Shown: piece by piece, positions 15,523 to 53,279 of the stretch
How the letters are laid out: each line of letters starts with the position of its first letter
Numbering within the stretch: position 1 is the stretch's first letter
Origin: Polytrichum commune
Taxonomy: Eukaryota; Streptophyta; Polytrichopsida; Polytrichales; Polytrichaceae
NCBI GenBank assembly: GCA_950295325.1
Contig: OX485803.1
Location: 63,007,554-63,071,553 of the forward strand
Direction of reading: 5' to 3'
Length of the DNA: 64,000 nucleotides
Translations under genes and position numbers: made by a program
The notes under the pieces: model-generated
What the model was told of the DNA's origin: nothing
Database searches by the model: none
The model's input: only the letters and a program-made list of their open reading frames with translations

Positions 15523-15530
15523 ATCACAAG

Positions 15531-24120: not shown

Positions 24121-24163
24121 TTATCTTGATATCTACTTAATAGTTGTTTGACTTGTCTTGTAG

Positions 24164-27278: not shown

Positions 27279-28318
27279 CTCTCGTGAAGAGAGTGAATTC
27301 CTCAACTCCCAGAGTGTGAAGCCCTTAATTTTATGTGTACAGTCTCTTTTTATATCAATACAAAGTGCCATTATTAAATCCTTCTTTAAGTTGTGAATGT
27401 GAAATTGAAAGTCTTGTGATTGGATCGGTGTGTGGATGTCCTAGAGTTGTTACCACTGTGGAAGTGGGAAGCGGGAGTGTTGTTGTTAATGTGGAGTTGT
27501 GATACAGGAGTGTGAAACTCTTGAATTGAATCGCATGTGTTTTATGTGTGGATTGTGAACAGTCGTATATGGAGTTATATGGACAGTGTCTTAAGGTTCT
27601 AAGAAAAGTTACAGTCAATGTGGAGACAGTGAATGTCCCTAATTCGGAGTAAGTTAAGAGGAAATTCATTTTATCCTACTCTTGTGAAGGGAGTAAGGAT
27701 TAGTTGTGTGACTTCAACTTCTTGTGAAGGAGTCAGTGACGAATAGGAGAGTGAGAAACTCTCAGTCACCCTCACAAGTGGAATGTGAAGTTCCACTGTG
27801 GGTAATTACGTAAGTAATCCTTGAGAATACCATAAGAGAAATAACAAATGATACTCTCGGGAAGAGAGTGAGAACTTGAAGTGTAAGAGATTGAATGGAT
27901 TATGATTGAATTTGTGTCTGAGTGTAGACACCAGGAATTTCCTGTGAAAGGAAATTAGAACTCCAGTCCGGGGTTAGCTTATGAAATCTAACTTCTTGAC
28001 TGAGGAAAGTTTTCTCAATTAAGTAAGAGGAAATCGCTGTAAAATTCCATCCGCATGCCAATCCCTTATGAAGGAGTGACCTTTACTAAATCAGAGTCTA
28101 TGAAAATTATACATAGTAAGTGCAAGAATTGTCCATATCCCTGTGAAAGGAGTTATGAAAAATTCATGTGGGAGTGTTAATCTGTTCCGACCATAAGCTT
28201 TGCTAATGCAGGATGTGAAGCTTGTCATTTCTCATATCCCACTTAAACTGGAATTGAAGAGATCCATGAGTTTTAACTTTAACACTATATTCGTTAATCG
28301 GAGACTTTCGAAAGTCTC
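27279..28318. repeat. Array of short hairpins with constant GTGAA-type loop (left copy)
   Basis: At least ten short inverted repeats have unrelated stems but the same loop. Examples (stem; loop): CTCTC; GTGAA at 27,279. CCACT; GTGGA at 27,453. GAGT; GTGAA at 27,508. GAGACA; GTGAA at 27,623. GAGAGT; GAGAA at 27,747. AGTGGAAT; GTGAA at 27,777. ACTCTC; GGGAA at 27,853. AATTTCCT; GTGAA at 27,936. ATTAC; GTAA at 27,805 and GTGTCT; GAGTGT at 27,914 are variants. A nested hairpin spans 27,673-27,700, and a loopless palindrome GAGACTTTCGAAAGTCTC ends the array at 28,301. Spacing is about 30-100 bp. No open frame is maintained. Confidence 0.8.
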
Positions 28319-28683
28319 AAAATAAAATCTGCCCATAGTTTGGGATGCCAATATTGTGGGCATACGGAATATTGGGAACAACAAGAACATAACGATTTAA
28401 AAAGTTGCACGTAAAGAATATTCTTATTTCTAAAAATAGAGAATGTCAATTAAAATGCAAACGTGAGCTCCATGTGGAAAATAACAATCGAATCTAAAAA
28501 AACAAATGGTTTATGTCATTATAGAGTTTGGGGTGCGCATCCCATAAGTAAGGCTCTTATGAATTTGGATGGCACATCCCAAACGTATACCACAATGGAG
28601 TGTGACAAGTCCATGAAGTCTATTAAAAACCAAGTCTACTAAGCGTCCATGTTTTTCGCCATGAACTCCCACCTATGTTATGT

Positions 28684-31600
28684 TTACACATCTCCGTCTT
28701 CCGCTTCATATCCATTATCGGCGTCATTTTCCGCAGCTGCAATACGTGCCAAGTTGTCTTTGGCAAAATCTATATGTTTTTGGGGGATGGTCATTGTTTC
28801 TGTTTTGGAACCTTTGCGCGGCTTCCAAGCACAAAGTATAGTATCCGTGTTTATCCAAACCGGTGTGTACGCTGAGTCCACTGTCCACTTAAAATTCTTT
28901 TTGGTGTTCCAACCTAAATAAGTGCGTAGCACGTTCTGGTCTTTAGTACTTGGACGACAATATTCCACCTCAATCTGACGAAAGTTGGGGCTAGTTCGAA
29001 CAAAATTGGGTGAAGACAATGCTTTCACCAACCAAATTGGCTTGGGATGTTCCTCATCCCCTGCTCGTACAAGGACCAAATAACCTTCATGGCAATCAAC
29101 ACCTACACGAAACGACGATGCCGGTCGATTGCGGGCAGGGCCAACGTAATGCTCGTCCATTGCGAACTCTTCACGAACGTCTCCATTGCTAAAAACCATG
29201 GTGTCGGACTCGACAACCGTCAAACGACTTTGTGGCCAAAATCCTTGTGTTAAAGTTGTACGGGTGTCACCACCAAGTGTCATTAGGGCCGAGCGAATGC
29301 GATCCCAATACGCAATCAAAGGTTCATGAGTATCTCTAACACGTCTAGTGATGTCCTCCTCACACAACTCTTTCCAATATTCAATGAATCCGGATATGCC
29401 TTTGATGATTTCCGGCCCATTCCTCATGGGGTCGGGTTTGCAAGGCTTTGGATCCCCATCCGGGAGCAAACATTTCCCATCATTGTCTTGACGCCATACG
29501 AGTATACCATCATCCGGTCCCCAATTAGGAGATGTGCACAAAAGTTTGAATTGCATGGCTGGGAGACCATCATCCCTTATATAGAATCGGAATTGTTGTG
29601 CTTTGGTATGCCCCACCAAACGGTCCCCTCCCTTCAACATGTATGACTTGATGAAGGCCTTGAAATCTGGTACTTCCTCAATCATGTGCGGAATTACTGG
29701 CATATGGTCCAAATCCATATACGATTTCATAAGAAGAGGTATGGTTGGAAAATCTTCTTCATGCAACTTCATGCTCCACCGTCCGAATGATGCATCAATG
29801 TCGTCGTGTGTATGTCCCACCATCAAAAACGACACAAACACCTCCTTGAAGATTCCTTTCGCCACGAGCAATGACCAAAAACAAAATACGTATCGACATT
29901 TGTTGTCTTTCGCGCAATTATCAAGTTGAACGTGAAGAGTTGGAGGCAATGGTTTTGCACAAATAGGTTCTCCCGGTGGTTCTGGCAATGACGACATACA
30001 AACCTCCTTCCCCGCAAGCACTGCTTCGTAAAGGGGTGTCGTTCCACAACCATCAAAAAGTACACGTGATGAATGTAACGGCGGCTTCTCCAGATCGCGC
30101 AAGAGTTTTGCAAATGAACCCACTGTGTGGTTAGCATCGCCAGGGTAAAAATCCAACCCATAATGGGCATACTTTACGTCTCCATGGCCGTGGGCAATCA
30201 TCCCTGCGAAAAAAAACAAACGATGCTTGAACAACAACAATAACAACGACAACTCCAAACGGAGGTATGAAATTGGACATTTGGCAAACACACCCAGTAA
30301 AATTTGAGAGAATTTGAATACATATTTGTGATTCAATACAAACCTGTGACAGATACGGGCAACTTGAAGAGACCATCCGTGGCCTTAATTTTGCGTGCAT
30401 AACAAGGGCATGCGGTCTTGGCGTGGTCCATTTTATCATGGATGATTGTTAGAACCTCTGTAGGCCTCATTATGGATAGAGCACGGTTCTTGTAGTAATC
30501 TTGACGGTGAGCCTCTTGGTTGTTGACATGTTCAATATATTTTGCTTGGTGTCTAGTGTGGGATTCGGTGCCTATGGGGTGGGCGTCTCGAAGACCTTTG
30601 TATTTTTCACACGTCGTACACCTAGCGAACTTGTCCCCAGGTCTCTTCAAAATGTATTCGGTAAACTGTTGGTTTTTAATCACACTCAACTTGGACAAAG
30701 AAATGGGCCCACATCCCGCTATGCGACCCACTTCATTGATGTCCGTTAATATGTTCTTCCATTTTGTACCCGTGGGCAATACCATTTGTACAACTTTCTC
30801 CCCTGACGACAATGTCCTCGTCTTGTGGGGCATTGCATCGGCCAATGGGACTATGATGGTGGAGAGTGTCGCGGAGGCTTGGAGTGTAGCCTCCCTAGGT
30901 TTCTTTGTGCCCGAATTGCCATGAAATCGAGAGCGGCGACCGAACAATGAATATTTTTGAAACCTATAAAAGTCAGACTTTGACACGGCGTGGATGGTAT
31001 ACCACGCAGTACAACACACTTCCACATTCTCAAGTGTGACCACCTTACGCCCATGGGTGTCAATGTGGACATTTCTGTGGACCTCGAGTTTCTTTGCCGA
31101 TCTCATACGGAAATCCGCAAGCCACATCTCTTGATGTAGGGACTTAATTTTCTCCCGCGGGAAAAATTGGCAACATTTCCTCTCGCAACAGTCTTTGGCG
31201 GACACAAGACGGATAGTTTCGTCTCCCAATATGCGATCCCGTCGACGTTCCTTATCTCCACGAGGCACACGGTTAGAATCATATCTGCGTAGGCCTTTGC
31301 GAGGACGTATTTTGGTCAACAAAGCTAATTGCGTTTGATTATGGCGGCGCTCATGGTCCAACAAGCTTACTCCGTCATGGAGAACCCGACAAAGAGGCCA
31401 TCGACGCAAGGAAAATCTCCATGTCACCGGGACGTCAAGCGGAAGCAAAGAATTCAAGATGCACACACCCACATCATCGGGACCAAGGGGGTTGGCATCA
31501 ACACAATCACGGGGATCAGAGTTTCTACATATGCCATCTGCCACGGGGACACCAACATCGTTGAAAAGAACAACATCAAGGCCCACCCATTGCTCCCTAC

Positions 31601-31820
31601 CGAAACCGGCACATAACGGAATGTCATCATTGTCATCCCCGGAACGTATAGATTGTTCGTGCGCTTCAAATGATTCGTGGGAGGATGCATCCACAAACCC
31701 ACCCATGGCATTTGCCATGCCATGACTACCCGCCGATGGCGAAGATAGTTTACAGTCATCATCGGAAGAGGAAGCTTTTGTGGACAACTCCAATGAACTA
31801 TATCCAATGTGCATCGCCAT
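28684..31820 (-). CDS. DUF7869-like, RNase H-type transposase-like protein (left copy)
   Basis: Two exons on the minus strand, 31,820-30,344 and 30,203-28,684, joined across a 140-bp GT/AG intron (phase 1), give 998 codons plus stop with no breaks. ATG at 31,820 is the first in frame; an open stretch upstream lacks ATG. The N-terminal half is basic and Cys-rich (CCERKCC about residue 200-210; CTTCEKYKG near 430). The second half has VLFDG (~541), QLDNCAKDNKCRYVF (~585) and GHTHDDIDASF (~622), the hallmark of a plant/animal family (DUF7869) thought to derive from DDE transposases. The acidic residues are present. It faces away from the DGQH gene, and its 5' flank carries ten copies of the 18-bp palindrome. 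The exact transposon superfamily is uncertain. Confidence 0.8.
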
Positions 31821-31963
31821 CCAACCTAAACAAACCACCAATAAAATGACCAACACAACAACCACCGCAATGCATACAAAAGTGGATACGAGATATGCCT
31901 ACATATATGGCTCAAAAATCACAAACAACTCTCGCCACACCGTTGCGGGACCTCACATATGAA

Positions 31964-33042
31964 GACGAACGTGCGTTCGACAACAACTCGATGACATGCA
32001 AATCCTACACGGGACTCAGACGTCCCTGCACAACGGAACCCCATTCCGATATATATTACCCGTGAAGGGCTTTGGGTCGAGTCGCCAATAAAACATTGGA
32101 AGGGTTGTCCACCACCAAGGGACAACACAAGCACATATATTCACGAACGCGCGGACGAAAATATCAGCCCAATATACAATAAAATCTAAATGGAACATAT
32201 TATAAGAGCACCTAAAATATATTTGCCACTTTATCCACATGCAGTAAGCATCATATTTGATGGGCGAGTGTTTACGAACGATCGTTCGTAAGTTCCAGCC
32301 GAAACTTAGGGGCGGATGCAAACGACCGATCATCTGTATGTCACAGCCGCGACAGTGTTTGGAAAAAATGATTGGACACGTCCGAATAGAGGTATCTATA
32401 GCCACGTTACAGGGAAACATGTTATCCAATAACCAGTGGAAAATGACAGTCGAAATCTATCACTAAATCATGATTGCATAGATACGAACGAGCGTTCGTA
32501 TCTATCATAAACACGGTGTAGTCCTCTACACATGCTTGCGTCAACAGGCCTGTTGGTGGATGCGTGGACGGTGGACAGGTGGTATTTACGAACGTGCGTT
32601 CGTAAAATTCAACTAACATAATTCTCCGCGGACACAAACGGTAGTGAGAAATACGAACGCTCGTTCGTATTTAACTTGCATATTGTTAACGTGGCCAATG
32701 CACTGAAGTGTATAAATTAAGGAATGTTTTTTGGATTCTTGAAAAATAATCCCAGGTGATATTTACGAACGCACGTTCGTAAATATCCCATCACCAGATG
32801 TTCCGTTGGAGAAAACGGTTACACGGGAACTCATGCGCGTCTGGGTCTTGAAGGTAGATATACGAACGTACGTTCGTATATCATCGACACAATTTTCGTG
32901 CCTAGTTCTGTCTATAAGGAACTCAATGTCGAGTACGGTTGTGATCAACTTACGAACGCACGTTCGTAAACAACTCATATCATATCGATGTACCTATTGT
33001 ACATGTGCTACCAACTCACGTTTACGAACGTGCGTTCGTAAA
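31964..33042. repeat. Palindrome cluster A (10 sites) upstream of transposase-like gene, left arm
   Basis: Copies of TACGAACGNNCGTTCGTA or close variants lie at about 31,965, 32,143 (degenerate), 32,272, 32,483, 32,585, 32,652, 32,763, 32,862, 32,951 and 33,022. The central pair varies (AT, AG, TG, CT, CA, TA). Self-complementarity often continues outward with different bases at each site (arms of 14 at 32,759 and 13 at 32,479 and 33,018). CpG-rich against an AT-rich background. Confidence 0.9.
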
Positions 33043-34350
33043 CGTCCGGTATTTGCGGCGGTATATACGGGTATGTGCAGTCTGTAGTGGACCTGGGTGG
33101 TGTAGGGTTGGCGCACAAGAAAATGGTTTGAGCACGTTCCAGTCAGGTCTGTGGAGCGCACACTTGGATGTGCCGCAGAAAAGAGCTCTTCTGTGGGGGG
33201 GAAGAGCTTTAAGTACCTTCCCCCCGATGGTTCAAAATCCCTTGGATGCTATTTAAAAAGCGGATTCCCGCCGCCTACTTTGACCTAACAATATGCCATT
33301 CCATCCATGCGCAATATATAAATAGCATTATGTATGGAACATGTCTTGCGTGCACGCAACATATTGTAAATATATAAATCCGTCGCACACCTTAGTTGTT
33401 ACCAAGGTCGCACAAAAATATGTCTATATGTCTATATGTCTATATTTATATGTATATATATGTATATTTTACTATTTTATATATGGGTTATTATATTATA
33501 TATATATAGGTTGATGGGTTAACATTGAGTGTTAAATTATTTGCGACTAAGGTGTGAAGTCCAAGTGAATTGATGAAGGTCTAAGTGATATATATATTCA
33601 CACACACAATGAGGTAAGAGTGGCTAAGAACATATTGTGGAATCCCCTAAAATTGTAGGTATCATATGATTCACATAAAAAAAATGCTTGTAATATGGTC
33701 ACCAAGTGCATGAATACCAATAAAAAGTCGCTTAATCCATAATGGCTTGTGCTAAGTAGATTGAGGACATTTGGAACTGGAGGCTCACCAAACATCGGCC
33801 CATATTAATATGAATCATTGTTGCAATTCATCATTGGTGAAAATTAAAGTTTAATGCACTAGTATTCGATCGTTAGTTCAAGTTGACACCTAATTAAATG
33901 ACTTGACGTCCTATTGGAAATTCACTTTAGGTCCACCATGGTGTGGAAATGGATAACGAATTTGGAATGGTGCATACAATAGTATGCACTTACAATTATA
34001 TATTTGTATTATTTGCAACAAGAAGTATGTGCATGACCATAGCTTAACTGTTGATTTAAGTTGAAGTCTTATACCATTCATGTTATAATAAGACTAAGTG
34101 TGTATTGTGTCATCAAATTGCACTCAAAACTATTAAGGTGAAAGGGCTAGCATTTCAAAATTCACTCTTCACCCCCTAAACCAATGTTTTATATCAAAAT
34201 GACAATTATTGGCATGAGTCTAGATTATTATAGTTGCTATGACCCAAATAAAGCAATTTCCAATCGAACCAACATTGGTAGACCATTTTGACATGATGCG
34301 CATAGACCACAACATGACCATATATAAGAAAGGTTGGTAAGATAAAAAGA

Positions 34351-34386
34351 TGTAGGGTTTAGGGTTTGGGGTTTGGGGTTAGGGTA
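34351..34386. repeat. Interstitial telomere-like repeats (TTTAGGG type)
   Basis: TAGGGTTTAGGGTTTGGGG followed by GTTTGGGGTTAGGG: about five diverged TTTAGGG units. Another GGGTTTAG lies at 34,427. Mirrored near 55,259-55,294. Confidence 0.7.
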
Positions 34387-34573
34387 TAGAGTTTGTGAAA
34401 GAGTTGTCTATGTGGTTTGCGGGCTTAGGGTTTAGATCGTTACTTCAATGCATTATATACACAAACAATATCGACTCCTAAATAATCCATATCGCACTAA
34501 CTTAATTTATGGGAAGCTCATACTATCAATTGATACTACTAGCAAAACATGCGACCACATGGCTAAAATACAC

Positions 34574-34869
34574 TACACTAAATATGATATTTAGTGTTTG
34601 ATTGTATAATATAGTGTTGTTACGCTATCATGGTCAACACTAAATTTCAATTCTTTGATAATTAGTGTTGGACATATTAAATGGGCCACCACATTTCCTA
34701 CTACCATGTCCTTTATGCTTTTATCATTGTTAATTATTTTTTTCATATTAATTTTCTTACACAAAATTTGTGCATGCGACATCCACATATTACCATTATA
34801 GTTGACATTAAGTGTTTGAGTTCGCAATGAATAGTAGTTACCTTCATAGGGTCAGTGATATTTAGTGTA
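34574..34869. mobile_element. TACACTA-ended MITE, copy 3 (left arm)
   Basis: Starts TACACTAAATATGATATTTA and ends ATATTTAGTGTA. It shares terminal sequence with the copies at 2,290 and 10,741. Internal ACACTAAAT/ATTTAGTGT words repeat several times to 34,910. Boundaries approximate; mirrored at 54,776-55,071. Confidence 0.5.
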
Positions 34870-35316
34870 CTATGCGTTTGTATTTAGAGTATCTAACACT
34901 AAATATCATATTAAGGGTGGTTCAAGCTAACACCTCATGAAATTAATGACATCGTATTGAAAATTGAATTTTCATCCACCTCTTGTGGAGAATCAGATAG
35001 CCCCTCTCCACAATTTAAATTGAGTCATTTACATATGTAATATTTATTTGAGGAACCATTGAAGAACTTTAAAGATGTCTCGTTCATGAAAACGACATTT
35101 GCATCTTGGGGGTGGATTCTTCATCGAAAACCTACTAAATGACATGAATTGTTAAATACAAATTATCTGAACATACTTTTCTAAAATATGTTTACAAGGA
35201 ATCCATATGTCGAGGTACTAAGGGGATACGGAAAGTCAAATTTATGTCCCTAAACTAAGCTCCTCCCATCTCCTATTTCATTTTTCCTGAACCCTCATCC
35301 CTCCATGTCCCCATGG

Positions 35317-35455
35317 TATCCCCTCATCCCCATCCCCTCCCCCTCCCCTCCCCTCCCCTTCCCATCCCCTCCCCATCCCCTCCCATCCTCATCCCCTCCC
35401 CATTCCCTCCCCATTCCCATTCCCCATCCCCATCCCCCTCCCCCATCCCAGCCCT
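35317..35455. repeat. Pyrimidine-rich CCCCTCCCC/CCCCATCCC tract (left arm)
   Basis: Nearly pure C/T/A on the + strand with C4-C5 runs every 4-8 bases. The complement is G-run rich and could form quadruplex or triplex structures. Mirrored at 54,190-54,328. Confidence 0.85.
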
Positions 35456-35639
35456 CGCCAGTGGCCACTAGCCACGTGGCCGCCGCTTGGAAACCCTAGC
35501 GGCGCCGGCTACCTCCCCGCGCCCCTCTCTCTCCTCCTCATTTGTCATTTGGAGCAGAGGAGGAGAGGAGCTCTTAGGTGCGGCGAAGCCCTTGCCAATT
35601 TTAGAGCCTCATTGTGAATGTTGTTTTGTTGTGTTGTCA

Positions 35640-35955
35640 GAACCTTGAGAATAGGAAAGCTTGAGAGTAGGAAAGGTTGAGAGGTTGAGAGTTATAGAAA
35701 GCTTGAGAGGTTTAGAGTTTTAGAAAGCTTGAGAGCTTGAGTTTTAGAAAGATTGAGAGGTAGAGAGTTTTAGAAAGCTTGAGAGGTTTAGAGTTTTAGA
35801 AAGCTTGAGAGCTTGAGTTTTAGAAAGCTTGAGTTTTAGAAAGCTTGAGTTTTAGAAAGCTTGAGAGCTTGAGTTTGAGGTTGAGAGGTTGAGAGTTTCA
35901 AAAAGGTTGAGAGCTTGAGAGCTTGAGAGCTTCAGAAAGCTTGAGTTTTGTGAAG
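35640..35955. repeat. Minisatellite TTTTAGAAAGCTTGAG (left arm)
   Basis: Interleaved 16-bp and longer units made of GAGTTTTAGAAAGCTTGAG and GAGAGGTTGAG words. The left arm has one more 16-bp unit than the right, explaining the 16-base offset between arms. Confidence 0.85.
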
Positions 35956-36381
35956 CTTGTGAGTTGTGTACATCAGGGTTTGTGTAGGATTTGCATATAA
36001 GTTGTGAAGGCTTGAGAGTGTGACAAAGTGAAGGCAGGAGGATTTGTGTGCAACAATTCAATGTGAGTACAGGTTTCTTTTACAAATCACTCCTTCACAA
36101 TCTGAAATTGTTGTTTGATGGATTCCTTGTGATTTGTTTTCTGCATTATGAGGTATGTCATGTTTTGTATGAAATAACACTTTCCTCTTCATTCTGAACT
36201 ATCAATCACTGACTCGCAATTTTGTTCTGATTCCATTTTTCACTTGTGTTTCATCAATCTGATCACGAGTTGCAGGATCATGAACAATGCCAGATTGCAA
36301 CATTCATACCAACATTTATACGTATATGTACGGATATATATGCACATAAATAAATATACCATTTCCTAATCCCAGATGACC

Positions 36382-36952
36382 ACATTTACGAACGTTCGTT
36401 CGTAAATGTGGCGTGAATACATGCCTTACCCCACAAACATATACGAACGTGCATTCGTAAATACGCACCTCACCCTCCATTTTTACGAACGCACGTTCAT
36501 ATATTCGTCTATACCCTGTACATCAAAAAATCCTCAAATCCAATTACACATACAAAAATACGAACGAACGTTCGTAATCACAAACTATAACAATATACCA
36601 AACCCTTCATGGTAATTGTCTGCATTTCCAAGTAGTATTATTTACGAACGCACGTTCGTAAATAAGAACTAAAGTATTAATTCACCTATTTAGAAGATGC
36701 TCATGGAAATTCGAACAACCCTCGTGGAAATTAGATAACCCTGGACAACTCGTGGACTTGTTTAGAAACAATACGAACGCACGTTCGTAAACTTGTGTCA
36801 AATACACCTTAGCAACCACATTCTTTACGAACGATCGTTCGTAAATGAAATCAGCGAAGACATCATTACAACTTCTCACGGGTATCCATAGCCAGAGTTC
36901 AATGATTAGTGTATATGATTTGCTTTGTCAATTACGAACGCTCGTTCGTAAA
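36382..36952. repeat. Palindrome cluster B (8 sites) upstream of DGQH gene, left arm
   Basis: Sites at about 36,384, 36,442 and 36,483 (both degenerate), 36,558, 36,641, 36,772, 36,825 and 36,933. The first has arms of 15 (CCACATTTACGAACG and complement around TT). The last two lie just before the first recognised coding exon. Confidence 0.9.
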
Positions 36953-36982
36953 CACAATACTAAATGTTTATGTGCTCTGCAG

Positions 36983-39900
36983 ATGGCCAGACCGAGCAGA
37001 AGCGCCATTGAGATGTTCGCTGTGCAGATAGATCAACTACCAGAGTCAGTGTCCGACCCCAACGGAAACGATAATTATGTCCCCAAGGAGGACTTCATAG
37101 GGGAATGGACGGCACTGCCAGAGAAGACATCAGACGGTCTTTTCTGTCTTCGCTTCACATACGAGCTGGAAACGACGCCGGACCAGCCAGCAATGGGTGC
37201 AGATGAAGACTTGGGAAGTAGAATCAATTGAGGCACAAGGAGATTATGTGATTCTAGACATGAAAAACAAGAAGGATCACATTAACCTATTGTTAGAGTA
37301 CAGGAGACATAGTTTCTCCTACACATACGCGGAAAATAACGTAGTGGCTGATGCCAAACACTTCCTCAAGGACCTCTTCACGAAGTACGCCCTGAGCTCG
37401 TACTGGACAGCAAGGAAGTTGGCCGCGCTCTCCTTGAATATCTCCAAGTACAATAGCGCGGTCGCGGAAGCCAACAAGAAGAAGAAGAGCCCACGGAAAC
37501 CATCCGCATCCGGGGCAGGAGGATCGAGAAGTGCACCCAAGCCGGTGCCTTCCGCGAGCAGGGTGACGGAGGGTCCCAGCCGTCATTCCACGCCATCGAA
37601 GAGGTCCCGGGACGAAATGGAGAGGTCTGGGGTAACAGAGGGCGCTGAGGTGAGCTCTCCTCCCGTGATGCCAACCCCTTTAAAGAAGGGTGAGAATCCA
37701 GATGCGGTGAAGGCAACGAAGATCCTACGAGATTTCAATAATTACTCGAAGGATTGCTGGCCCATGGGGCGCCACTTCACGTTCAACGTGGACTGCTTCA
37801 AGTGCGAAAAGTCACCCAACAAGTGGGTGGTAAGGTCTCGCGAGAGCGGTGGGGTGAAGTGGCAGATAAACAACCTCATGAATAACGTCAAGTGGGATAG
37901 ACAAACAGTCTGCGTCATGCCCAAGGGGCTGACATCCCGACCGACAGAGGTGGATTGGCCGCGAATCCAGAATGGAGAATTCTGGATTGTAGATGGTCAG
38001 CACAGCTTGGAGGCGTCGCAACAGATCCTCAAGGACGACAACTTCCAGCACGAGCTGAAGGCTGACCTGCGGTACTGGAAGGCGTTCTTGGTCTGGTCGG
38101 ACGATTGGGACAAGCTGCGCAAGATTTCAACCTTCCTGAACTCGGGGAACAAAATCAAGGCGTTCGAGGCTTCGTGGGCGGCTAACATAGTGGCTGCCAG
38201 AGACGTCTGGGTGGCACACGGATGCCCACCAAAGGAAAGGGAGAACGCCAAGAACCAGTCTCCCCAATGGAAGGTGAGTTTACGAACGAACGTTCGTAAA
38301 GTGTTAGATTCATGAAAACTTCAATTACATACTCAATTTACGAACGTGCGTTCGTATTATGTGCAACACTGACATCTTGTTTTGTGCAGGCATTTTGCGA
38401 CGCGATGGTAGACAAGTTCTCTTCCATCGATATGAAGTCCACCACCACCAAGTCAGTGCTTGAGCTGAAGGGTGAGCTCAGACTGATCTGCTGCAACAGG
38501 GACACCTGGGACTTGTGGACACAGTTTTTTGATGCACACAGCTCGGGCGATTTGGTCAATCCCGACACCGAGGAGAAGTACAGCACGGAAAAAACCGGTG
38601 AGGCGCCCCCACTACTGAGGGAGTTCTTTAGACACCTCCAGGGATTGACGGAGTCAGAGCTGAAGAGGTGTGCGATTCATGTTCTTGGGAACACCGTGGG
38701 AAGAAACCTTCCCTATCCCAAGATCTTTTTGAAGAGGCCAAAGCACAAGCCCGGCACGTACTCTATCAAGGAGTGGTGTGACCACCGGAAGCTGAAGACT
38801 GCTGCCATGAGAGAATTGAGCGTACTCGCACCAGAGTACAAAATCTTTGAAGTCGACGGCGACATCAACTGGCCGCAATGGCAATTGTTAAAGGTCGACT
38901 ACAACATCAACGGAGCCTCCATGCGCATTCTGGTCAAGGAGCACGCCTCGGTTTTGAAGTTGAAGGGGACAAAAGGACTAAGAAAACCGACACGGATCCC
39001 CACGAGGTAATGTTGTACATACAATTTTTGGAGAGGAAGAGGAACGCCACATTCGAAGGGGTGGCAAGGTTTTGCGTGATGACCTCCGGCGTGGAGAGGG
39101 TCACATTTTCCAAGTGGGACGGCACCATAAGCAGGGCCGAGGTGAGGGAGGATCGACGGGGTTGCCCTTTTGCCCTGATCGATTTCAGGGGGATCCCGGG
39201 TGCGTCAAGGCAGGGGGGGGAAGGACATTCCCTTCTACAACCCCTTCATGGCCAAGTTCATGGAGTTCAAATCGCCAGCCATGAGGGAGCCACACGTTTG
39301 GCTGTGGATAGTCGAACAGGAGAAGCTGTCGGTCGTCACAGAGCTGTACGAGCAGAAGATCAAATTCGAGTACAGCATCTTCCACAGCACGTACGTGCCA
39401 GCGAAGACGGAGGGGATCGTGGCCATCAACGAGGCCAGGGGCAACAAGCAAGTGGGAGCGGTCAGCCTGATTTTCTTGACGTACAATGAGCTTAGGGATG
39501 GGCGACCGCCTATCAAGGCGAACAACACGTTCAAGAAAATCTACAGCATCCCGCATCCCCCTCCCAAGGATCTGCTGCAAGAGACCCTCTACACCGTCTT
39601 CCCCGCCATGGAACTCAGGATGGAGTTCTACGTCTCTATATTGCAGAGTCTGGTTATAAGTGGAGAGACGGTATACAACGTATGTGGAGGCTCCAAATTC
39701 ATGTATGCGGCCATGGTAAATTGTCCAGACTCCATTTACGAACGCTCGTTCGTAAAGTTAACCAACTTCTCAACGCATTGTTTCAAAGTCGCTGCACGTG
39801 ACGCATTGATGTTTACGAACGCTCGTTCGTAAACATAACCCCCTTCGTAATGTAATGCTTGAAACTCGTTGCACGCCACGCTTTGATGTTTACGAACGTG

Positions 39901-42900
39901 CGTTCGTATTTTCTGACCTTATTGCTCTCTTCTCACAGATGATGGGTCTCGTAGTCAACACCTTCGTTGACGCTATCGACGAAGAAGACTTCAAGTTCCA
40001 CCGTGCGAAGGCGTCGACGATGGACCTCAAGGACATCTCTGTCCCAAGGATGGACTTCAGTATGCCCGCCGACGAGGGCATACCACTCCACGATTCAGAG
40101 GACGACGAGCCCGCCCCCTCCGCCAACGTGGACGCCATTCTGCAGTCCTTCGACGTACCCCCGCTTCGGATCTTGCCGCCAACGACAGATCTTCCCGACC
40201 CTCAAGGGACTCCGGGTGGTTATACAGGGTCGTCCGCGGGGACAACCCTGGACCTCCTCCCCGCGCGAACGTCTCTTGCGGAGCCTTTCGGAACGCCAGG
40301 CGGATGCTCGACGTCACAGTCTCCAAGGCCCGCCGTGGTTCCGAAGATGGAAACCCTGGACATCCTCGACCAACGCTCGCGTCCATCTTTGGACCTCTTC
40401 CGCAACACGAGGAGGAGGATGAAGAAGACTCCCTACGTGGAGTTGCCGCCGGGAGCAATCATCGAGGTCTCCGACGAGGACGAGGGGGACATGGACATCA
40501 TGGCCGAGCTTGGGGTGGACTACGACAAGAACAAGCGGGTGAAGGAGGAGGCGCTTACCGTCTCTGAGCTCAACGCCAAGCTGGAGGCGAAGATGAAGGA
40601 GGAGATGGCTGCAGCCCAGGAGGAGAGCGCCAAGCATCTGGCTAGGCTGCAAGAGCAGCTGAGGGAATCAGCGGCCAAAACTGACGCCATCTTCGAGATG
40701 CTCAGAAACATGCAGAGCTTCTCTGCGCCGGTCCAGCAACCTTACCCCTTCCCCCCTGGAGGATACCCCTCACAGCCCCCACCTCCAGTCATGTACCAAG
40801 GAGGGCCTTCCCACCAAACAGCGCCACACCCAACGCCGGCGGGAAGTCCATTGCCCCCGGAGGTGACGGCGACCGCCTCAACCTCCCACGATGCAATCAC
40901 GGCGGCGCTAAGGGAGGACGAAGATTTACGAACGCGCGTTCGTGAATCTTCAGGTCCGGCAGTCCTGACCCCTCCCCCTTCAAGGGTAGGACTGCCCACA
41001 GACACGGACACGGCCTCTTTCACCGTCGTCCCAAGGGTTGTAGATAGGAGGGGCGATGACACTGCGCAACACACTGACATGGTCATTGTGGAGGAAACGC
41101 AGGGGAGCCCCAATGACTCGGCAGGTCCGCGTGGGATGGTCGTGGAGAGCCCTGAACAGGAACGACATCCATCCGCGCACATGGAGGATGTCCGCATGGA
41201 GAGACTCGACCTGGGCGGGGACGACGACGTGGAGCTCATCCAACAGACCCAGTCGTCTCAGGCGGAGCGTCCGGCGGAGGTCATGGATCCAGAGGCTGCT
41301 GCCCCAATGGATATTACGAACGCGCGTTCGTTAACCAAAGAGGTAACTCATCTCTGAGAATGCCAAATGTTTTACGAACGCGCGTTCGTAACATCACTAA
41401 CCCCCGCGTTGTGTTCTTGGCGCTTCAACTCCATCGACATCACGTTGCCCGCGCGAGCCTTTTTCTACGTGATCCCTTGGGCCGATCAATTTTGTAGGAC
41501 ACTGAATTTTTTCCTTAGGAAATTTTGATAGATTATCACGCGAGACAATTGTACATATTCACCGAATTAATATATGAGCAGACGATCTCTGCTCGCATCA
41601 CCACAACTTATTGCATATTCTCGCGTCTTGTGTTGTCTGTGCTCTTGCGCATCTTTGCATTCTTTGCATACACACCTCACTCACGAACGCTCGTTCGTAA
41701 AACTGTCCGACCCCCTCTCGACTTCCTTCGCGAACGAGCGTTCGTATATGTATGCATCCGCGCTCACGAGCGAGCGTTCGTAAATGATGCGCACCGCCCC
41801 CGCAGCCTTCATTCACGAACGCTCGTTCGCAATTGTGCCCTTGTGCATATTTCCTTGAACCCTCCTTACTTCCTCCTCTTTTCCCATAATGCATCGTCTT
41901 TATTTTGAACGCAAAAATTTCATTATTGGATCATAGAATTAAACTAGTCGCGTTGTTCATCACAGGACCCCCCGGAGATAGGTCGCAACCCCTCGACCAG
42001 TGGACCTCGAACCCGGAACAAGCCTTTCATAGTTTTTGACCTCAACGGGGTCTTGTGTCACACCCAACACATCCCCAGGGTTCCCACGCGTCCCTTCCGT
42101 CACCCCGACGAAAGGGACTATGACGGCGAGCTCGACACCCTCATAAACCGCAAGGCTGTCCGCGCCCGTCCCGGCCTGCGCGACTTCCTTCGCGAGGTGG
42201 TCGAGTTCGCCCACGTCGTTGTGTGGAGCTCCATGGTCATGGACAACACGGAGCCCATCGTCGACTTCTTGTTCCGTGATCTCCCGCGCCCTTGCCTCGT
42301 CCTCGGCCAAGAGGAATGCGACGAGCTGCTCGACGAGAAGGGCCAACCGGTGCCCAAGTTTGGCGGTCGAGGCGGAGGACAACAGTTCCTCAAGGTCCTC
42401 CGCTCGAGACTCTGGCGAGGCGTCCCCTGTCTGCAAGGGACGCCGCACGGGTGGTGGCCGACTCCAGAGAACACCGTCCTCATCGACGACAGTCCCACCA
42501 AGAGCGTGTTGAACCCCCCGGGCAACGTCATCTTCCCGGACACTTGGACCGGCGATAGGCAAGACACCTTTTTGGTCGATAGGCTAGCCCCCTACCTTAG
42601 AAGGCTCGTGCTCCACGCCGGTAGCATCCCATTTTTTGTTAGGTCCAACCCCTTCGGCAATGCGGCGCTAAGCCCCCGCGATAATGTATATAAGAGCATC
42701 ATGAGGCTCGCCAAACTCAATAAATTGATTTGAAATGCCTCCATGTCTTTGCTTGTTATCATGTGGTTCACATATCTAATGCTTGCCCCGTTTTTGGATG
42801 TCTTTTGTTGTTGTGATTGTTGTTGTTCTTGTTCTTGCCCATAGTCTGCCCCCATATGCGACGCCCCTGTGGTCGACGGCCCTTCCCGTCCCCTCTCGCT

Positions 42901-43831
42901 CCCCGCATCCCCTTCCCGCGACGTCACGGACTTCCAAATGCCATCCCTCTACCACTTCTCGGCGGTCGACGCGGCCTCGGCCGTGGATTACTCCCGCGAC
43001 GTCGGCATCGACGACGGCGTCGTCAACAGCCCGCCCCCCGCACTTGTCGCCCGCGCCTACGCCCCGTCGCCCTCCCCCCTCTCCAAGGAGAAACGGACGC
43101 TCGTTCGTTTGGGGCACCTCTCGCCCTCTAAGGACGACGGCGTCGCTCGTCGCGGGCCGAGCCGGCCTCTCCGCATGGAAGGCCCCCGTTGCCACACCTC
43201 CCCCGCCGACTCCGTTCCTCCCCCCGCAACGTCCTCCGCCATCATGGGCCCTCCACGCCTCGACTCCCCCCCGCCATCCAACATTGCAATAGTTCCATCG
43301 GCTCCGGATGCTCCCGTCGACGCCCCCCTCGTTCCCACCGTTCCCCGCATGGACGTCCCCAAATCCAAGGTGCCCTCCTCAACCCTAAACCCCTTTCCCG
43401 CTTTTGCTTTCCTTGTCTTCCGTTTGCGTGCCGTTCTCTTTACGAGCGCCCATCCCAAACCGCCCTTCATTATTTTCCCCACTCCATTCCTATTCTTATC
43501 TTCCTATGACGTTGTTTCGCAGGTGGCTACCCGCTCGCTTGGTGCCGGGCCCTCCTCCACGTCCTCCTTGGATAGGCACGCCCTCAAGGCCGCATCTTCC
43601 GAGTCCGATCGTTGTCTGGCCCTCCGGAGAAGCGCAAGACGTTCCCTTTCGCAAACGCCCTCGTATTCTACTTATAATACCACCTCGTACAATTCGGGAG
43701 CGCGTCCTGAAACATGCAAGAACGACACATATTCCTATCCAGGCAACACACAAGGATTCAGTCGTGGGCCTGAGATTTTTAGAGCCATGGAGGCCGCCAA
43801 AAAAAAGGACTTAGCCGCAAAAAAAAAATAG
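36983..43831 (+). CDS. DGQH (ParB/DGQHR-like) - coiled coil - FCP1/NLI HAD phosphatase fusion gene (left, complete copy)
   Basis: Predicted exons are 36,983-38,273, 38,390-39,715, 39,939-41,342, 41,966-42,685, 42,845-43,369 and 43,523-43,831, all with GT/AG borders in phase 0. Exon 1 has EFWIVDGQHSLEAS (about 37,976-38,017), like the ParB/DGQHR fold. Exon 3 has a coiled coil (40,560-40,715) then a Pro-rich stretch. Exon 4 has HAD motifs: FDLNGVLCHT (42,035-42,064), VVWSSM (42,218-42,235) and VLIDDSPTK (42,476-42,502), as in FCP1/NLI phosphatases, but with Asn for the second motif-I Asp. Exons 5-6 are Ser/Pro-rich, ending in KKKDLAAKKK. If the donor at 42,686 is skipped, translation stops at 42,733. 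Three frame changes (about 37,190; 38,975; G8 at 39,211) interrupt exons 1-2. The first exon and the joining of all six are inferred. Confidence 0.55.
38279..38358. repeat. Two palindromes in intron 1 of DGQH gene (left)
   Basis: 38,279-38,300 (centre AA) begins inside the GTGAGTTT donor region, and 38,337-38,358 has centre TG. The intron is only 116 bp, so the two sites fill over a third of it. Confidence 0.9.
39734..39911. repeat. Three palindromes in intron 2 of DGQH gene (left)
   Basis: Sites at 39,734 (centre CT), 39,811 (CT, arms of 13 with ATG/CAT flanks) and 39,890 (TG) within a 223-bp intron. Confidence 0.9.
40920..40951. repeat. Palindrome within coding exon 3 (left)
   Basis: Core ACGAACG-CG-CGTTCGT. 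The self-complementary arms extend to 15 bases (GAAGATT outward), with one T/G pair that would be a wobble in RNA. It encodes LRTRVRESS in frame. Confidence 0.9.
41316..41331. repeat. Palindrome at 3' end of exon 3 (left)
   Basis: ACGAACGCGCGTTCGT, encoding TNARS just before the exon 3 donor at 41,343. Confidence 0.85.
41370..41832. repeat. Five palindromes in intron 3 of DGQH gene (left)
   Basis: Sites at about 41,372, 41,682, 41,730, 41,766 (degenerate, ACGAGCG) and 41,814. The intact target site of the LTR-like insertion seen in the other arm (ACCCC, 41,710-41,714) lies between two of them. Confidence 0.85.
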
Positions 43832-44237
43832 TGGGTCGGACTAGTGTGACTAGAAGCGTACTAGTGGGACGGACTCCCTAAATGGGCTTAGGTGTAGAAC
43901 ATATTTAAGTGCTTACTTTCTATGCTATTCCAAGTTACTCAAGACATTGATGGTATTTCCATTATAATTGTATTTCTATCCCAATTAATTCATTCAACTT
44001 CCATTCATTCTTCGCATCTTCCCTTCCATTCATAACGAGTTGTCATTTCATACGCAACTATTTTCATGTATGCCTCACATTTTTGTTCACTTCCATGCCT
44101 TTATGTATAATAATAGTAGCATACCATTATACATATGGGATTTTTAGTCGTCATTACTGGTCCATTTTTGAAATGTGCATCCTTATATAGTCTCATAATC
44201 AACAAAAAGTCTCCAAATACCGAATATAGAGGTCCAA
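43204..44237. other. Unique spacer between the inverted-repeat arms
   Basis: 1,034 bp. The first 628 bp are the 3' end of the left DGQH-phosphatase gene (rest of exon 5, a 153-bp intron, exon 6). From 43,832 to 44,237 is AT-rich DNA without recognisable features. The right junction falls in GGTCCAAGG|GGAGGTGTGG at 44,237/44,238. Confidence 0.9.
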
Positions 44238-45731
44238 GGGGAGGTGTGGCAACGGGGGCCTTCCATGCGGAGACGCCGGCTCGGCCCGCGACGAGCGACG
44301 CCGTCGTCCTTAGAGGGCGAGAGGTGCCCCAAACGAACGAGCGTCCGTTTCTCCTTGGAGAGGGGGGAGGGCGACGGGGCGTAGGCGCGGGCGACAAGTG
44401 CGGGGGGCGGGCTGTTGACGACGCCGTCGTCGATGCCGACGTCGCGGGAGTAATCCACGGCCGAGGCCGCGTCGACCGCCGAGAAGTGGTAGAGGGATGG
44501 CATTTGGAAGTCCGTGACGTCGCGGGAAGGGGATGCGGGGAGCGAGAGGGGACGGGAAGGGCCGTCGACCACAGGGGCGTCGCATATGGGGGCAGACTAT
44601 GGGCAAGAACAAGAACAACAACAATCACAACAACAAAAGACATCCAAAAACGGGGCAAGCATTAGATATGTGAACCACATGATAACAAGCAAAGACATGG
44701 AGGCATTTCAAATCAATTTATTGAGTTTGGCGAGCCTCATGATGCTCTTATATACATTATCGCGGGGGCTTAGCGCCGCATTGCCGAAGGGGTTGGACCT
44801 AACAAAAAATGGGATGCTACCGGCGTGGAGCACGAGCCTTCTAAGGTAGGGGGCTAGCCTATCGACCAAAAAGGTGTCTTGCCTATCGCCGGTCCAAGTG
44901 TCCGGGAAGATGACGTTGCCCGGGGGGTTCAACACGCTCTTGGTGGGACTGTCGTCGATGAGGACGGTGTTCTCTGGAGTCGGCCACCACCCGTGCGGCG
45001 TCCCTTGCAGACAGGGGACGCCTCGCCAGAGTCTCGAGCGGAGGACCTTGAGGAACTGTTGTCCTCCGCCTCGACCGCCAAACTTGGGCACCGGTTGGCC
45101 CTTCTCGTCGAGCAGCTCGTCGCATTCCTCTTGGCCGAGGACGAGGCAAGGGCGCGGGAGATCACGGAACAAGAAGTCGACGATGGGCTCCGTGTTGTCC
45201 ATGACCATGGAGCTCCACACAACGACGTGGGCGAACTCGACCACCTCGCGAAGGAAGTCGCGCAGGCCGGGACGGGCGCGGACAGCCTTGCGGTTTATGA
45301 GGGTGTCGAGCTCGCCGTCATAGTCCCTTTCGTCGGGGTGACGGAAGGGACGCGTGGGAACCCTGGGGATGTGTTGGGTGTGACACAAGACCCCGTTGAG
45401 GTCAAAAACTATGAAAGGCTTGTTCCGGGTTCGAGGTCCACTGGTCGAGGGGTTGCGACCTATCTCCGGGGGGTCCTGTGATGAACAACGCGACTAGTTT
45501 AATTCTATGATCCAATAATGAAATTTTTGCGTTCAAAATAAAGACGATGCATTATGGGAAAAGAGGAGGAAGTAAGGAGGGTTCAAGGAAATATGCACAA
45601 GGGCACAATTGCGAACGAGCGTTCGTGAATGAAGGCTGCGGGGGCGGTGCGCATCATTTACGAACGCTCGCTCGTGAGCGCGGATGCATACATATACGAA
45701 CGCTCGTTCGCGAAGGAAGTCGAGAGGGGGT

Positions 45732-47946
45732 TGTGAGCCCAAAAGGGTGCCCACATTTAGTCTTAGACCCTTGAAACGTTAGTTGATGCACTTTGAAGTA
45801 GCATGTTACTTCACAAAAATATAAAAAGAGTGAAATGTTAGTCTTAGAAGTACCATGTTGTAAGAGGCTAGGATGTGAGTTGTTATTGTGTTTTTACCTT
45901 CGGAAGGATTTGAGTGAATGAGGATAGGTAAGGAGAACTTGGATTGAGTAGTTAGTGAGTAGGCTAGTACAAATGGATGGAGACAACCAAAGTGACTCAA
46001 GAGGCAAGTGCATTCGAATTGGGATGAATGGAGGATCACATGGAGCGCACAAGTGGACCACCTCATCATGGCCACTTAATGGGGAAGGCCCAAGGAAGAA
46101 TGCAAGGTGGAGGATAAGCAAATTCTCAAAGCACCAATCAAATCACGAGTTAAGCATCGTGGTTTGAATTAAGTGGTGAGCGACGATTTGGGAAAGTAAG
46201 GGGAGAAAGTTATGGCGGCGGAAAGCGAAGGAGGCTAAGTTTGGGTTGAAGCATCCCAAGTTTGGTAAAGTGTGGTAGGTAGAAAGCCAAGGCTAGTTAA
46301 ATGTTCGAATTAGGATCCTTGTTGATCATTTGAGGGAGGAAGGCTTAGAAGATAGGATTGGCGCCTACTAAGTAGGAGGAAATCTCAAGGGCTTATCGTG
46401 AGCCTTGAGGGTGCTCACCCCCTCAAGCTTACTATATAATCCCTCATTCTTCCCTCACTCATCCTCTCTTTCCTTTGTGCTCCAAGGCACCCCACGAGTT
46501 ATAAGTGTGGGTGTGGGAAGCCATATTGGAGCACATGTGTGTGCTTAGTTTTTAGTTTGAGAGCCAAGGCTTGTTAGCCTTGAAGAGGGCTTGACCTCTT
46601 GGTAGAATTAGTGTTGACGTGAAGGATTTTAAAGTTAATTCATGATTCCAATTTGTGGTACTTAAAGTTCATGTTTTGAATACACGTGGTTGCAAGTTCC
46701 ATGTTTAAGAGTTGAGCACTTGATGTTGTGATGAGTGCAAAAATATACTTGTGTGGATTAGTTAGTCTTAGTGAAGTTAGGAAATTCTCTCTCTCCCTCT
46801 CTTCTCTAGGAAGTTGAGCTCTTAGAGCTCGGGAAAAATTGTGGAATTAGGTAGGGGACTTAGTGGGATTAGTGGAATTAGGTAGGTGAATTAGGGGGAG
46901 GCCTTGGAGAAGCTCTCTTTTGTTCATTTTCTGGTTTTTGTGGTTGAGGGTGGAGAAACTTAGTTAGAAGTAGCCGCAGCTAAGGAGCTGGGTTTATGAA
47001 GGAGCTGGGTTTATTTAATTAGAAGTAAGGAGCTGGGTTTATTTAGTTAGAAGTAAGGAGCTGGGTTTATGAAGGAGCTGGGTTTGTTTAGTTAGAAAGT
47101 AAAGAGCTGGGTTTATGAAGGACCTGGGTTTGTTTAGTTAGAAGCTAAGTAGCTGGGTTTATGAAGGAGCTGGGTTTATGAAGGAGCTGGGTTTGTTTAG
47201 TTAGAAGCTAAGAAGCTGGGTTTATGAAGGAGCTGGGTTTATGAAGGAGCTTAGTAGATAGCCTACCTAATTAGCTCATAGACAAGTAGTTAGTTACATT
47301 ATGCTAGTTAGTGTTATGTGTGGCTTTCACAAGTAAATGTATTTGAGATTGACTATGAGAATAGTGTTTTTTTTAACACTTGCATCCTCTCTTTAAAAAT
47401 AAACCACGTGCACAACTTAATGGAGAATGTGGAGCACTCTCGCGATGGCAAGACAAAGGAAGCAAAGACCAAAGGTGCGAGGGAGAGATTGACATAAGTC
47501 ACATAAGTATTTCTTAATACTTAAAGGCTTATGTACGGTATGGAGACACCAAGTGAGACCTCTTATAGTAGCGATACGGAATACACAAGTGATAGTTCAA
47601 GTGGTAGTATAGAGTCAACGGCACGGACTCCATTTAGGAGAGGGATATCCTTAAGGGCTTGTGTAGCTAAAGCAGCCGGATGGACGTTAGAAGCAAACAA
47701 AGACAAAATAGCACCCGAGCATAAGGAGGTTAAAATAACATAGTTAACTTGTGCATTCTCCACATACGTATTGAAATCGTACATTGAGTTGTTAAAAGTG
47801 AAATTCCAGTTAAATCCAAGACCACTTGAAGGGTGAACCTTGTACTATGGACTCATCCAAGTCCAAATCCAATACCGCGGAGGAATGTGAGCCCAAACCC
47901 ACTACTCGGACTACGGACGCTTAAGGGTGGGGGGTTTGGCCTCACA
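45732..47946. mobile_element. Solo-LTR-like insertion with 5-bp duplication, present only in the right arm
   Basis: Starts TGTGAGCCC and ends GGCCTCACA (TG...CA ends, 6-bp inverted termini). GGGGT is duplicated at 45,727-45,731 and 47,947-47,951 and is single in the left arm (41,710-41,714). Length 2,215 bp. TACTATATAATCC near 46,430 could be an LTR promoter. No gag-pol and no second LTR were found, so a solo LTR (or very small LTR element) fits best. The ORF at 47,531-47,743 has no family features. Confidence 0.85.
46980..47265. repeat. Tandem repeat GGAGCTGGGTTTATGAA inside the LTR-like element
   Basis: About ten irregular units of AAGGAGCTGGGTTTATGAA alternating with TTTAGTTAGAAG spacers. 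Confidence 0.9.
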
Positions 47947-47959
47947 GGGGTCGGACAGT

Positions 47960-49772
47960 TTTACGAACGAGCGTTCGTGAGTGAGGTGTGTATGCAAAGA
48001 ATGCAAAGATGCGCAAGAGCACAGACAACACAAGACGCGAGAATATGCAATAAGTTGTGGTGATGCGAGCAGAGATCGTCTGCTCATATATTAATTCGGT
48101 GAATATGTACAATTGTCTCGCGTGATAATCTATCAAAATTTCCTAAGGAAAAAATTCAGTGTCCTACAAAATTGATCGGCCCAAGGGATCACGTAGAAAA
48201 AGGCTCGCGCGGGCAACGTGATGTCGATGGAGTTGAAGCGCCAAGAACACAACGCGGGGGTTAGTGATGTTACGAACGCGCGTTCGTAAAACATTTGGCA
48301 TTCTCAGAGATGAGTTACCTCTTTGGTTAACGAACGCGCGTTCGTAATATCCATTGGGGCAGCAGCCTCTGGATCCATGACCTCCGCCGGACGCTCCGCC
48401 TGAGACGACTGGGTCTGTTGGATGAGCTCCACGTCGTCGTCCCCGCCCAGGTCGAGTCTCTCCATGCGGACATCCTCCATGTGCGCGGATGGATGTCGTT
48501 CCTGTTCAGGGCTCTCCACGACCATCCCACGCGGACCTGCCGAGTCATTGGGGCTCCCCTGCGTTTCCTCCACAATGACCATGTCAGTGTGTTGCGCAGT
48601 GTCATCGCCCCTCCTATCTACAACCCTTGGGACGACGGTGAAAGAGGCCGTGTCCGTGTCTGTGGGCAGTCCTACCCTTGAAGGGGGAGGGGTCAGGACT
48701 GCCGGACCTGAAGATTCACGAACGCGCGTTCGTAAATCTTCGTCCTCCCTTAGCGCCGCCGTGATTGCATCGTGGGAGGTTGAGGCGGTCGCCGTCACCT
48801 CCGGGGGCAATGGACTTCCCGCCGGCGTTGGGTGTGGCGCTGTTTGGTGGGAAGGCCCTCCTTGGTACATGACTGGAGGTGGGGGCTGTGAGGGGTATCC
48901 TCCAGGGGGGAAGGGGTAAGGTTGCTGGACCGGCGCAGAGAAGCTCTGCATGTTTCTGAGCATCTCGAAGATGGCGTCAGTTTTGGCCGCTGATTCCCTC
49001 AGCTGCTCTTGCAGCCTAGCCAGATGCTTGGCGCTCTCCTCCTGGGCTGCAGCCATCTCCTCCTTCATCTTCGCCTCCAGCTTGGCGTTGAGCTCAGAGA
49101 CGGTAAGCGCCTCCTCCTTCACCCGCTTGTTCTTGTCGTAGTCCACCCCAAGCTCGGCCATGATGTCCATGTCCCCCTCGTCCTCGTCGGAGACCTCGAT
49201 GATTGCTCCCGGCGGCAACTCCACGTAGGGAGTCTTCTTCATCCTCCTCCTCGTGTTGCGGAAGAGGTCCAAAGATGGACGCGAGCGTTGGTCGAGGATG
49301 TCCAGGGTTTCCATCTTCGGAACCACGGCGGGCCTTGGAGACTGTGACGTCGAGCATCCGCCTGGCGTTCCGAAAGGCTCCGCAAGAGACGTTCGCGCGG
49401 GGAGGAGGTCCAGGGTTGTCCCCGCGGACGACCCTGTATAACCACCCGGAGTCCCTTGAGGGTCGGGAAGATCTGTCGTTGGCGGCAAGATCCGAAGCGG
49501 GGGTACGTCGAAGGACTGCAGAATGGCGTCCACGTTGGCGGAGGGGGCGGGCTCGTCGTCCTCTGAATCGTGGAGTGGTATGCCCTCGTCGGCGGGCATA
49601 CTGAAGTCCATCCTTGGGACAGAGATGTCCTTGAGGTCCATCGTCGACGCCTTCGCACGGTGGAACTTGAAGTCTTCTTCGTCGATAGCGTCAACGAAGG
49701 TGTTGACTACGAGACCCATCATCTGTGAGAAGAGAGCAATAAGGTCAGAAAATACGAACGCACGTTCGTAAA
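47960..49772. repeat. Palindromes in intron 3/exon 3 of right DGQH gene
   Basis: Mirrors of the left sites, at about 47,962, 48,273, 48,331, 48,711 and 49,753; further intron 3 sites lie at 45,612, 45,660 and 45,697 on the other side of the LTR-like insertion. Sequence unchanged from the left arm where compared. Confidence 0.85.
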
Positions 49773-52708: not shown

Positions 52709-53279
52709 TTTACGAACGAGCGTTCGTAATTGACAAAGCAAATCATATACACTAATCATTGAACTCTGGCTATGGATACCCGTGAGAAGTTGTAATGATG
52801 TCTTCGCTGATTTCATTTACGAACGATCGTTCGTAAAGAATGTGGTTGCTAAGGTGTATTTGACACAAGTTTACGAACGTGCGTTCGTATTGTTTCTAAA
52901 CAAGTCCACGAGTTGTCCAGGGTTATCTAATTTCCACGAGGGTTGTTCGAATTTCCATGAGCATCTTCTAAATAGGTGAATTAATACTTTAGTTCTTATT
53001 TACGAACGTGCGTTCGTAAATAATACTACTTGGAAATGCAGACAATTACCATGAAGGGTTTGGTATATTGTTATAGTTTGTGATTACGAACGTTCGTTCG
53101 TATTTTTGTATGTGTAATTGGATTTGAGGATTTTTTGATGTACAGGGTATAGACGAATATATGAACGTGCGTTCGTAAAAATGGAGGGTGAGGTGCGTAT
53201 TTACGAATGCACGTTCGTATATGTTTGTGGGGTAAGGCATGTATTCACGCCACATTTACGAACGAACGTTCGTAAATGT
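52709..53279. repeat. Palindrome cluster B, right arm
   Basis: Eight sites mirroring 36,382-36,952, upstream of the right DGQH gene. Confidence 0.9.

Follow-up and report, generated by a model that had tools for sequence, protein, structure and literature searches.

Introduction

CACTA elements carry subterminal repeats, and in En/Spm the TnpA protein binds subterminal motifs, which consist of many copies of a short motif. In Arabidopsis, VANDAL elements hold family-specific motifs in the upstream regions and introns of their own copies, multiplied partly by tandem repeats, and these motifs are read by an element protein, VANC, which relieves silencing (PMC5735166, PMC10398659). Chapaev elements are reported to have ends in 5'-CAC and to make duplications of 3 to 4 bp (PMC4079192).

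The locus of Polytrichum commune that we compare with these systems lies in a 64-kb stretch of DNA, hereafter the window, and is a transposon with copies of a palindrome between its two genes, in introns and even in an exon. We consider that these palindromes are probably cis-acting recognition sites for an element-encoded protein, most likely the product of the gene which we call DGQH, and that, by analogy with VANDAL elements, they would work like the anti-silencing motifs of VANC.

Palindromic sites in the window

CGAACGNNCGTTCG has 52 exact matches in the window, all within 31966-57679, against 0 in 100 dinucleotide shuffles; since the window is a near-perfect inverted duplication, the independent number is 26 sites per arm and not 52. 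The full palindrome, TACGAACGNNCGTTCGTA, has 40 exact matches and, when the whole window is searched with up to 4 mismatches, 62, of which 31 fall in each arm and none (0/62) outside 31964-57681, in agreement with the first-pass annotation, which had estimated about 31 copies per arm and had noticed them at one locus of the window only. The two arms lie head to head at 23739-43203 and at 44238-64000 and beyond, and they are 99.9-100% identical except for indels of 16 bp and about 2.2 kb; the duplication is either a very recent event or a fold-back assembly artefact.

Promoters, introns and exons had been named as the places of the palindrome, and this was borne out when 27 sites of the left arm were placed on the gene model described below: 15 fall in the space that separates the divergent genes, and within the DGQH gene introns 1, 2 and 3 hold 2, 3 and 5 sites and exon 3 holds 2. 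With up to 3 mismatches allowed, nine sites are located upstream of the DUF7869 gene (31964..33040, unstranded; 8 exact 18-bp sites and 1 with 3 mismatches) and eight just upstream of the DGQH gene (36387..36950, unstranded; 2 of them with one mismatch). The latter cluster may be part of an intron in the 5'UTR, with CAG as its last bases just before the ATG; in several homologues, the read-through ends in Q ahead of M.

The palindrome had also been described as a fixed CGAACG/CGTTCG core with a free central dinucleotide. The core is as described, but full freedom of the centre is not found: among 99 exact 18-bp sites, counted in the left arm of the window and in the stretches E1-E4 of the same genome, G stands beside CGAACG in either half-site just 3 times (GT, GA and TC), and in the derivative copy E0 the centres GG/CC, which are avoided by the other copies, are favoured. 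Beyond the 18 bp, the flanks are strongly symmetric in the window (two statistics, with 13 and 1 of 10000 permutations; 1 of 5000 in another run) and less so in E1 (104 of 5000), while the permutation test gave no significance in E2-E4 or in the diverged family B, and flank symmetry was therefore dropped as a general feature.

The transposon and its two genes

All the palindrome sites lie inside one kind of DNA transposon of about 16 kb, which occupies 28281-44229 of the window and was defined against the stretches E0-E4. Copy 1 (28281..44229, plus strand) begins with the left terminus AACACTATATTCG at 28281, and its right terminus ends at about 44229 with the last bases altered at the joint of the duplication; these termini are common to other genomic copies. 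Copy 2 (44238..61364, minus strand) is inverted, is without about 1 kb of the right end, and is interrupted at 45732-47946 by about 2.2 kb of inserted DNA, which is 93.6% like a stretch beside E0 and is thus taken as another repeat family. The terminal repeats are 13 bp long (AACACTATATTCG); the left terminus reads AACACTATATTCGTTAATCGGAGACTTT and the right one ends CGAATATAGTGTT in intact copies, with a variant in E1 that reads CAATA. Outside AACACTA...TAGTGTT, a 4-bp direct duplication (CATA, ATGT and ATAA) is found in three of the four copies of which both ends were read, and none is found in the remaining one, on C4. Another palindrome, GAGACTTTCGAAAGTCTC, lies just inside the left terminus at 28301-28318 and has a near-copy in other elements. 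Elsewhere in the window, an inverted repeat (17176-17592 / 17887-18303) is 99% complementary and about 80% like a repeat in E4. Within one transposon copy of E2, 14760-29254 (L044-L045) holds six stretches of about 975 bp that are about 95% mutually identical, and the contig ends of C1 and C2 read TTTAGGG.

The left gene, at 28684..31865 on the minus strand, is the transposase candidate: it matches DUF7869 (PF25273, E 6.4e-40) and consists of two ORFs, probably separated by an intron near 30336, the junction being placed by eye, and no sequence relative of it was found in PDB (best E 0.65, taken as chance). The divergent right gene, DGQH, is modelled on the plus strand as four exons with phase-0 introns. 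Exon 1 (36983..38273) has an N-terminal PH/FERM-like domain, from a weak match, and the ParB/Srx-like DGQH domain, and intron 1 (38274..38389) has palindromes at 38281, directly after the 5' splice site, and at 38339. Exon 2 (38390..39715) has a helical region and a putative MT-A70-like methyltransferase fold, and is followed by intron 2 (39716..39938), in which palindromes stand at 39737, 39814 and 39891 with a spacing of 77 bp. In exon 3 (39939..41342) there are a low-complexity region and two coding palindromes, at 40927 and 41315, with one mismatch each, and in intron 3 (41343..41965) palindromes at 41373, 41682, 41729, 41765 and 41814 with 0 to 2 mismatches. Exon 4 (41966..42733), entered at a phase-0 junction, encodes a NIF/FCP1-like phosphatase domain (PF03031, E 7.7e-14). 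The environmental protein P0098 continues across the predicted join of exons 1 and 2; the join of exons 3 and 4 was made from splice sites and phase only. Exons 1 and 2 (36983-39715) of the window copy have single-base frame slips, one of them near 37190, which are the same in both arms and may be homopolymer errors. Environmental sequence holds a DGQH homologue whose protein is 98% identical.

Above the Pfam cut-off, the ORFs of the element gave DUF7869 and NIF only, with no domain of VANC or of VANDAL transposases, and the homologues of exons 1-2 gave no family; sub-cut-off matches to DUF6551 (7 of 27 rows, best E 0.012) and of P0060 to GHBP (E 0.0013) were set aside. No sequence relative of exon 1 or exon 2 was found in PDB either (best E 0.49 and 0.44, taken as chance). 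Fold prediction gives a ParB-N/Srx-like fold for the DGQH domain of exon 1. The first-pass annotation had invited comparison with ParB-parS, and the predicted fold and the palindromic multicopy sites favour this comparison, but the motif does not. The nucleotide motif of ParB and Noc is GxRR, while in all 27 rows compared G, Q and H of the DGQH motif are invariant and the next residue is S or T instead of R, so that the domain has DGQHS/T without the second arginine of GxRR. No helix-turn-helix was seen among the fold-search matches listed for exons 1-2. For exon 2, a methyltransferase-like fold is suggested by a weak match, and all 40 rows compared have DF[RC]xxP at the position judged to correspond to the catalytic motif DPPW/DPPY of MT-A70/beta-class methyltransferases.

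Conservation of the sites between copies

The window copy was compared with E1-E4, 17, 18, 20 and 9 of 26 sites being alignable, respectively. Identity is 97-98% at the 16 fixed bases, 67-82% at the central NN and 73-77% in the 10-bp flanks on each side, against 78-85% in other non-coding DNA and 84-87% in coding DNA, and CpG retention is 94-98% in the palindromes, against 54-74% in other non-coding and 59-70% in coding DNA, although the values for the palindromes are inflated because the sites were chosen as intact in the window copy and alignable.

How would such sites look if they were a functionless by-product of local tandem duplication? Some arrays are indeed tandem, such as that with the 77-bp spacing in intron 2 and the regular arrays in E0. 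However, the cores are conserved while the flanks and the centre change, both exon-3 palindromes are kept in E1 and E3, and homologues that range from about 40% to 98% identity again have a palindrome close to the splice donor; passive amplification is, to our mind, extremely improbable.

Another possibility is that the palindromes act in RNA, where hairpins in introns, or pairing between palindromes there, would regulate splicing of the element's own transcript. The two palindromes of intron 1 pair with each other in the RNA fold (z -2.97), and most homologues with a legible tail (37 of 45, see below) have a palindrome a short way past the 5' splice site. But the cluster upstream of the DUF7869 gene has nine sites, and the transitions counted in degraded sites of six stretches (1-2 mismatches), if read on the sense strand of DGQH, yield 18 G-U pairs, 2 Watson-Crick pairs and 30 broken pairs. 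Pairing is thus not favoured, and, with no preference for G-U, the selection looks like that for DNA recognition and not for RNA pairing, which leaves an action in RNA quite unlikely.

Sites and gene pairs in the genome

In the whole genome, the 18-bp palindrome has 4680 matches against 0 for the control, which was the reversed pattern alone. Among the 18-bp matches listed, all but one (C1:2367516) fall in the stretches E0-E4. Both genes are present in E1, E2 and E4, and the DGQH gene with part of the DUF7869 gene in E3; E0 is a 9.5-kb derivative, with both termini present, in which tblastn found short relics of two genes only, and its stretch holds 42 palindrome sites at up to 2 mismatches, some in regular arrays. 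It had been proposed to check whether the palindrome tracks copies of the gene pair genome-wide, and the places inspected are indeed all in copies of the element, E0 with its gene relics included. The pair itself is common: at least 58 of the best 79 scored DUF7869 matches have a divergent DGQH match within 20 kb, 51 of these being 6.7-8.1 kb apart, and at least 57 of the best 110 scored DGQH matches have a divergent DUF7869 partner. A viral origin was considered and rejected; the 18-bp palindrome occurs in 7 viral stretches with one site each, which is taken as chance, and so are the 12 pattern matches that came from a search with the DGQH alignment, none of which was confirmed.

Half-sites of related families and the protein tree

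E3 also contains a diverged element, family B, whose DGQH protein is 39% identical to that of the window element (family A). It has ten copies of TTGGGTCGNNCGACCCAA, mostly as GTTTGGGTCGNNCGACCCAAAC, and one copy of its palindrome stands directly after the corresponding exon, as in family A. About 3 kb beyond the NIF exon of family B there is a CGAATATAGTG terminus like that of family A, which is taken as family B's own. Family B thus appears, from this one copy, to share termini with family A despite another palindrome, and this speaks against a role of the palindromes as sites for the DUF7869 transposase, used in transposition as the CACTA subterminal repeats might suggest. Such a role would suit the CACTA-like ends and the sites that persist and multiply in E0, which retains both termini. 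Nevertheless, the sites show no clustering at the ends and spread through 11 kb of internal sequence, reaching introns and exon 3, and we regard the transposase as an unlikely reader of them.

The half-site of family B, TTGGGTCG, is present 10011 times in the genome against 0 for the control, and TACGGACG, which was first read from environmental proteins and is known here by count alone, has 1382 matches against 0. P0060, an environmental homologue of family B, has at least 92 genome matches at 76-78%, and, among the matches listed, that at C1:2118741-2120105 lies inside a cluster of TTGGGTCG palindromes. E1 holds, at 24875-29746 (L042 about 4875-9746), a palindrome around GAGGCCTCGGATCCGAGGCCTC in 29-33 copies, many of them 96-127 bp apart, which is possibly a satellite or another such palindrome family.

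The predicted environmental proteins often continue past the exon into the first intron, and their tails were back-translated for a palindrome of the form X8-NN-X8'. Out of 64 proteins (P0001-P0064), 13 are without the exon end and 6 are too short; among the 45 left, 37 tails are compatible with an 18-bp palindrome at the first-intron donor and 8 are not (52 of 2583 positions, versus 26 of 51849 coding positions). For exon 2 and the intron-2 donor, 51 proteins gave 38 tails and 14 heads that were long enough, the head of P0098 being exon 1 itself; 26 tails and 4 heads are compatible, versus 24 of 56286 coding positions, and 12 tails are without a compatible palindrome. Eight half-site classes can be distinguished, TACGAACG, TACGGACG, TACGGCCG, TTAGGCCG, TTGGGTCG, TTCGGGCG, TTCGGTCG and TTGGGCCG; all have T first (C is possible in some tails) and G fourth, while the constancy of the inner CG is no result, since it was imposed by both scans, and certain tails leave base 1, or bases 2 and 5, open. 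Genome counts cover the TACGAACG-type 18-bp palindrome, TTGGGTCG and TACGGACG; the classes TTCGGGCG, TTCGGTCG, TTGGGCCG, TTAGGCCG and TACGGCCG come from proteins alone.

These classes follow the tree of the protein. On a tree of 47 DGQH proteins (33 rows labelled, P0010 from its head, and 14 without a legible class; P0014 and P0019 were left out), the 8 classes require 8 changes, where the minimum is 7, and 500 shuffles require at least 14 with a mean of 19.6, although the sites would co-vary with every gene of the element, so that the tree gives the DGQH protein no special place. By eye, exon-2 tails agree: the nearer clade shows TACGAACG, tails at 52-56% identity show TACGGACG, and P0110 shows TTGGGTCG. 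Judged from sequence, this suggests that the differing words of related elements change with their own ParB-like proteins, and that each element recognises its own copies.

Could a host DNA-binding protein or a host modification enzyme read the palindromes instead? A host methyl-CpG system would fit their CpG-rich core. However, this one genome has three half-sites side by side, each in over 1000 copies, where a single host factor should have kept to a single site, and among homologues the half-site class goes with the tree of the element protein; a host reader is hence highly unlikely. The first-pass annotation had read the palindromes as sites for a dimeric element-encoded or host protein, and this is supported in part: the element side is favoured over the host side, as the half-site class follows the protein tree, while binding and dimerisation are what we infer.

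A possible mode of action

If the palindromes are recognition sites of the DGQH protein, a dimer of this protein would occupy both half-sites, one being TACGAACG and the other its complement, through a site-reading domain which would lie in the same protein. Dozens of sites in promoters and introns would let the protein coat copies of its own family only and, once bound, it might keep these copies expressed against host silencing, an outcome supposed by analogy with VANC and VANDAL. The NIF phosphatase is a possible effector at the transcribing polymerase. It might even be that the transposon runs a eukaryotic system similar to ParB-parS, in which a protein combining a ParB fold, a methyltransferase-like part and a Pol II-type phosphatase loads on the palindromes of its own family in its promoters and introns, spreads over the element and marks it as self, with protein and site changing together and several families, each with thousands of sites, running side by side in one genome, but this extended version is doubtful.

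The families offer a natural series of co-diverged protein-site pairs, in which an element has dozens of sites and a genome thousands. From this series, the rules of target change by a transposon protein may be read, and they are open to test in vitro. Should the palindromes be bound by the ParB-like protein, ParB-style DNA recognition would exist in eukaryotic mobile elements, and the sequence-specific self-recognition known from VANC would have a second, unrelated origin.

Comparison with known systems

In the literature searched, with preprints outside the scope, no paper was found on DUF7869, nor, among the papers listed, any on a eukaryotic element of such a kind bearing CACTA ends, MT-A70 or ParB, or anything relevant on subterminal or palindromic motifs of the TnpA type. 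Concerning its ends, the element resembles the CACTA-Mirage-Chapaev group in its terminal repeats with CACTA...TAGTG and in the 4-bp duplications of three of four copies, but it has AA/TT outside CACTA/TAGTG, within the duplications, and the likeness rests on termini and duplications, the candidate transposase being DUF7869. With En/Spm it would share an element-encoded protein that reads many copies of a short motif, whereas the motifs here are internal, intronic, palindromic and family-specific. The predicted ParB-N/Srx fold and the short multicopy palindromic sites recall bacterial ParB/Noc with parS/NBS, yet here they belong to a eukaryotic transposon, with DGQHS/T for GxRR and many sites per element. 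As in VANC/VANDAL, arrays of a family-specific motif occupy non-coding parts of the element's own copies; the difference is that the motif here is an 18-bp dyad palindrome, accompanied by a DUF7869 gene and a ParB-like/NIF gene.
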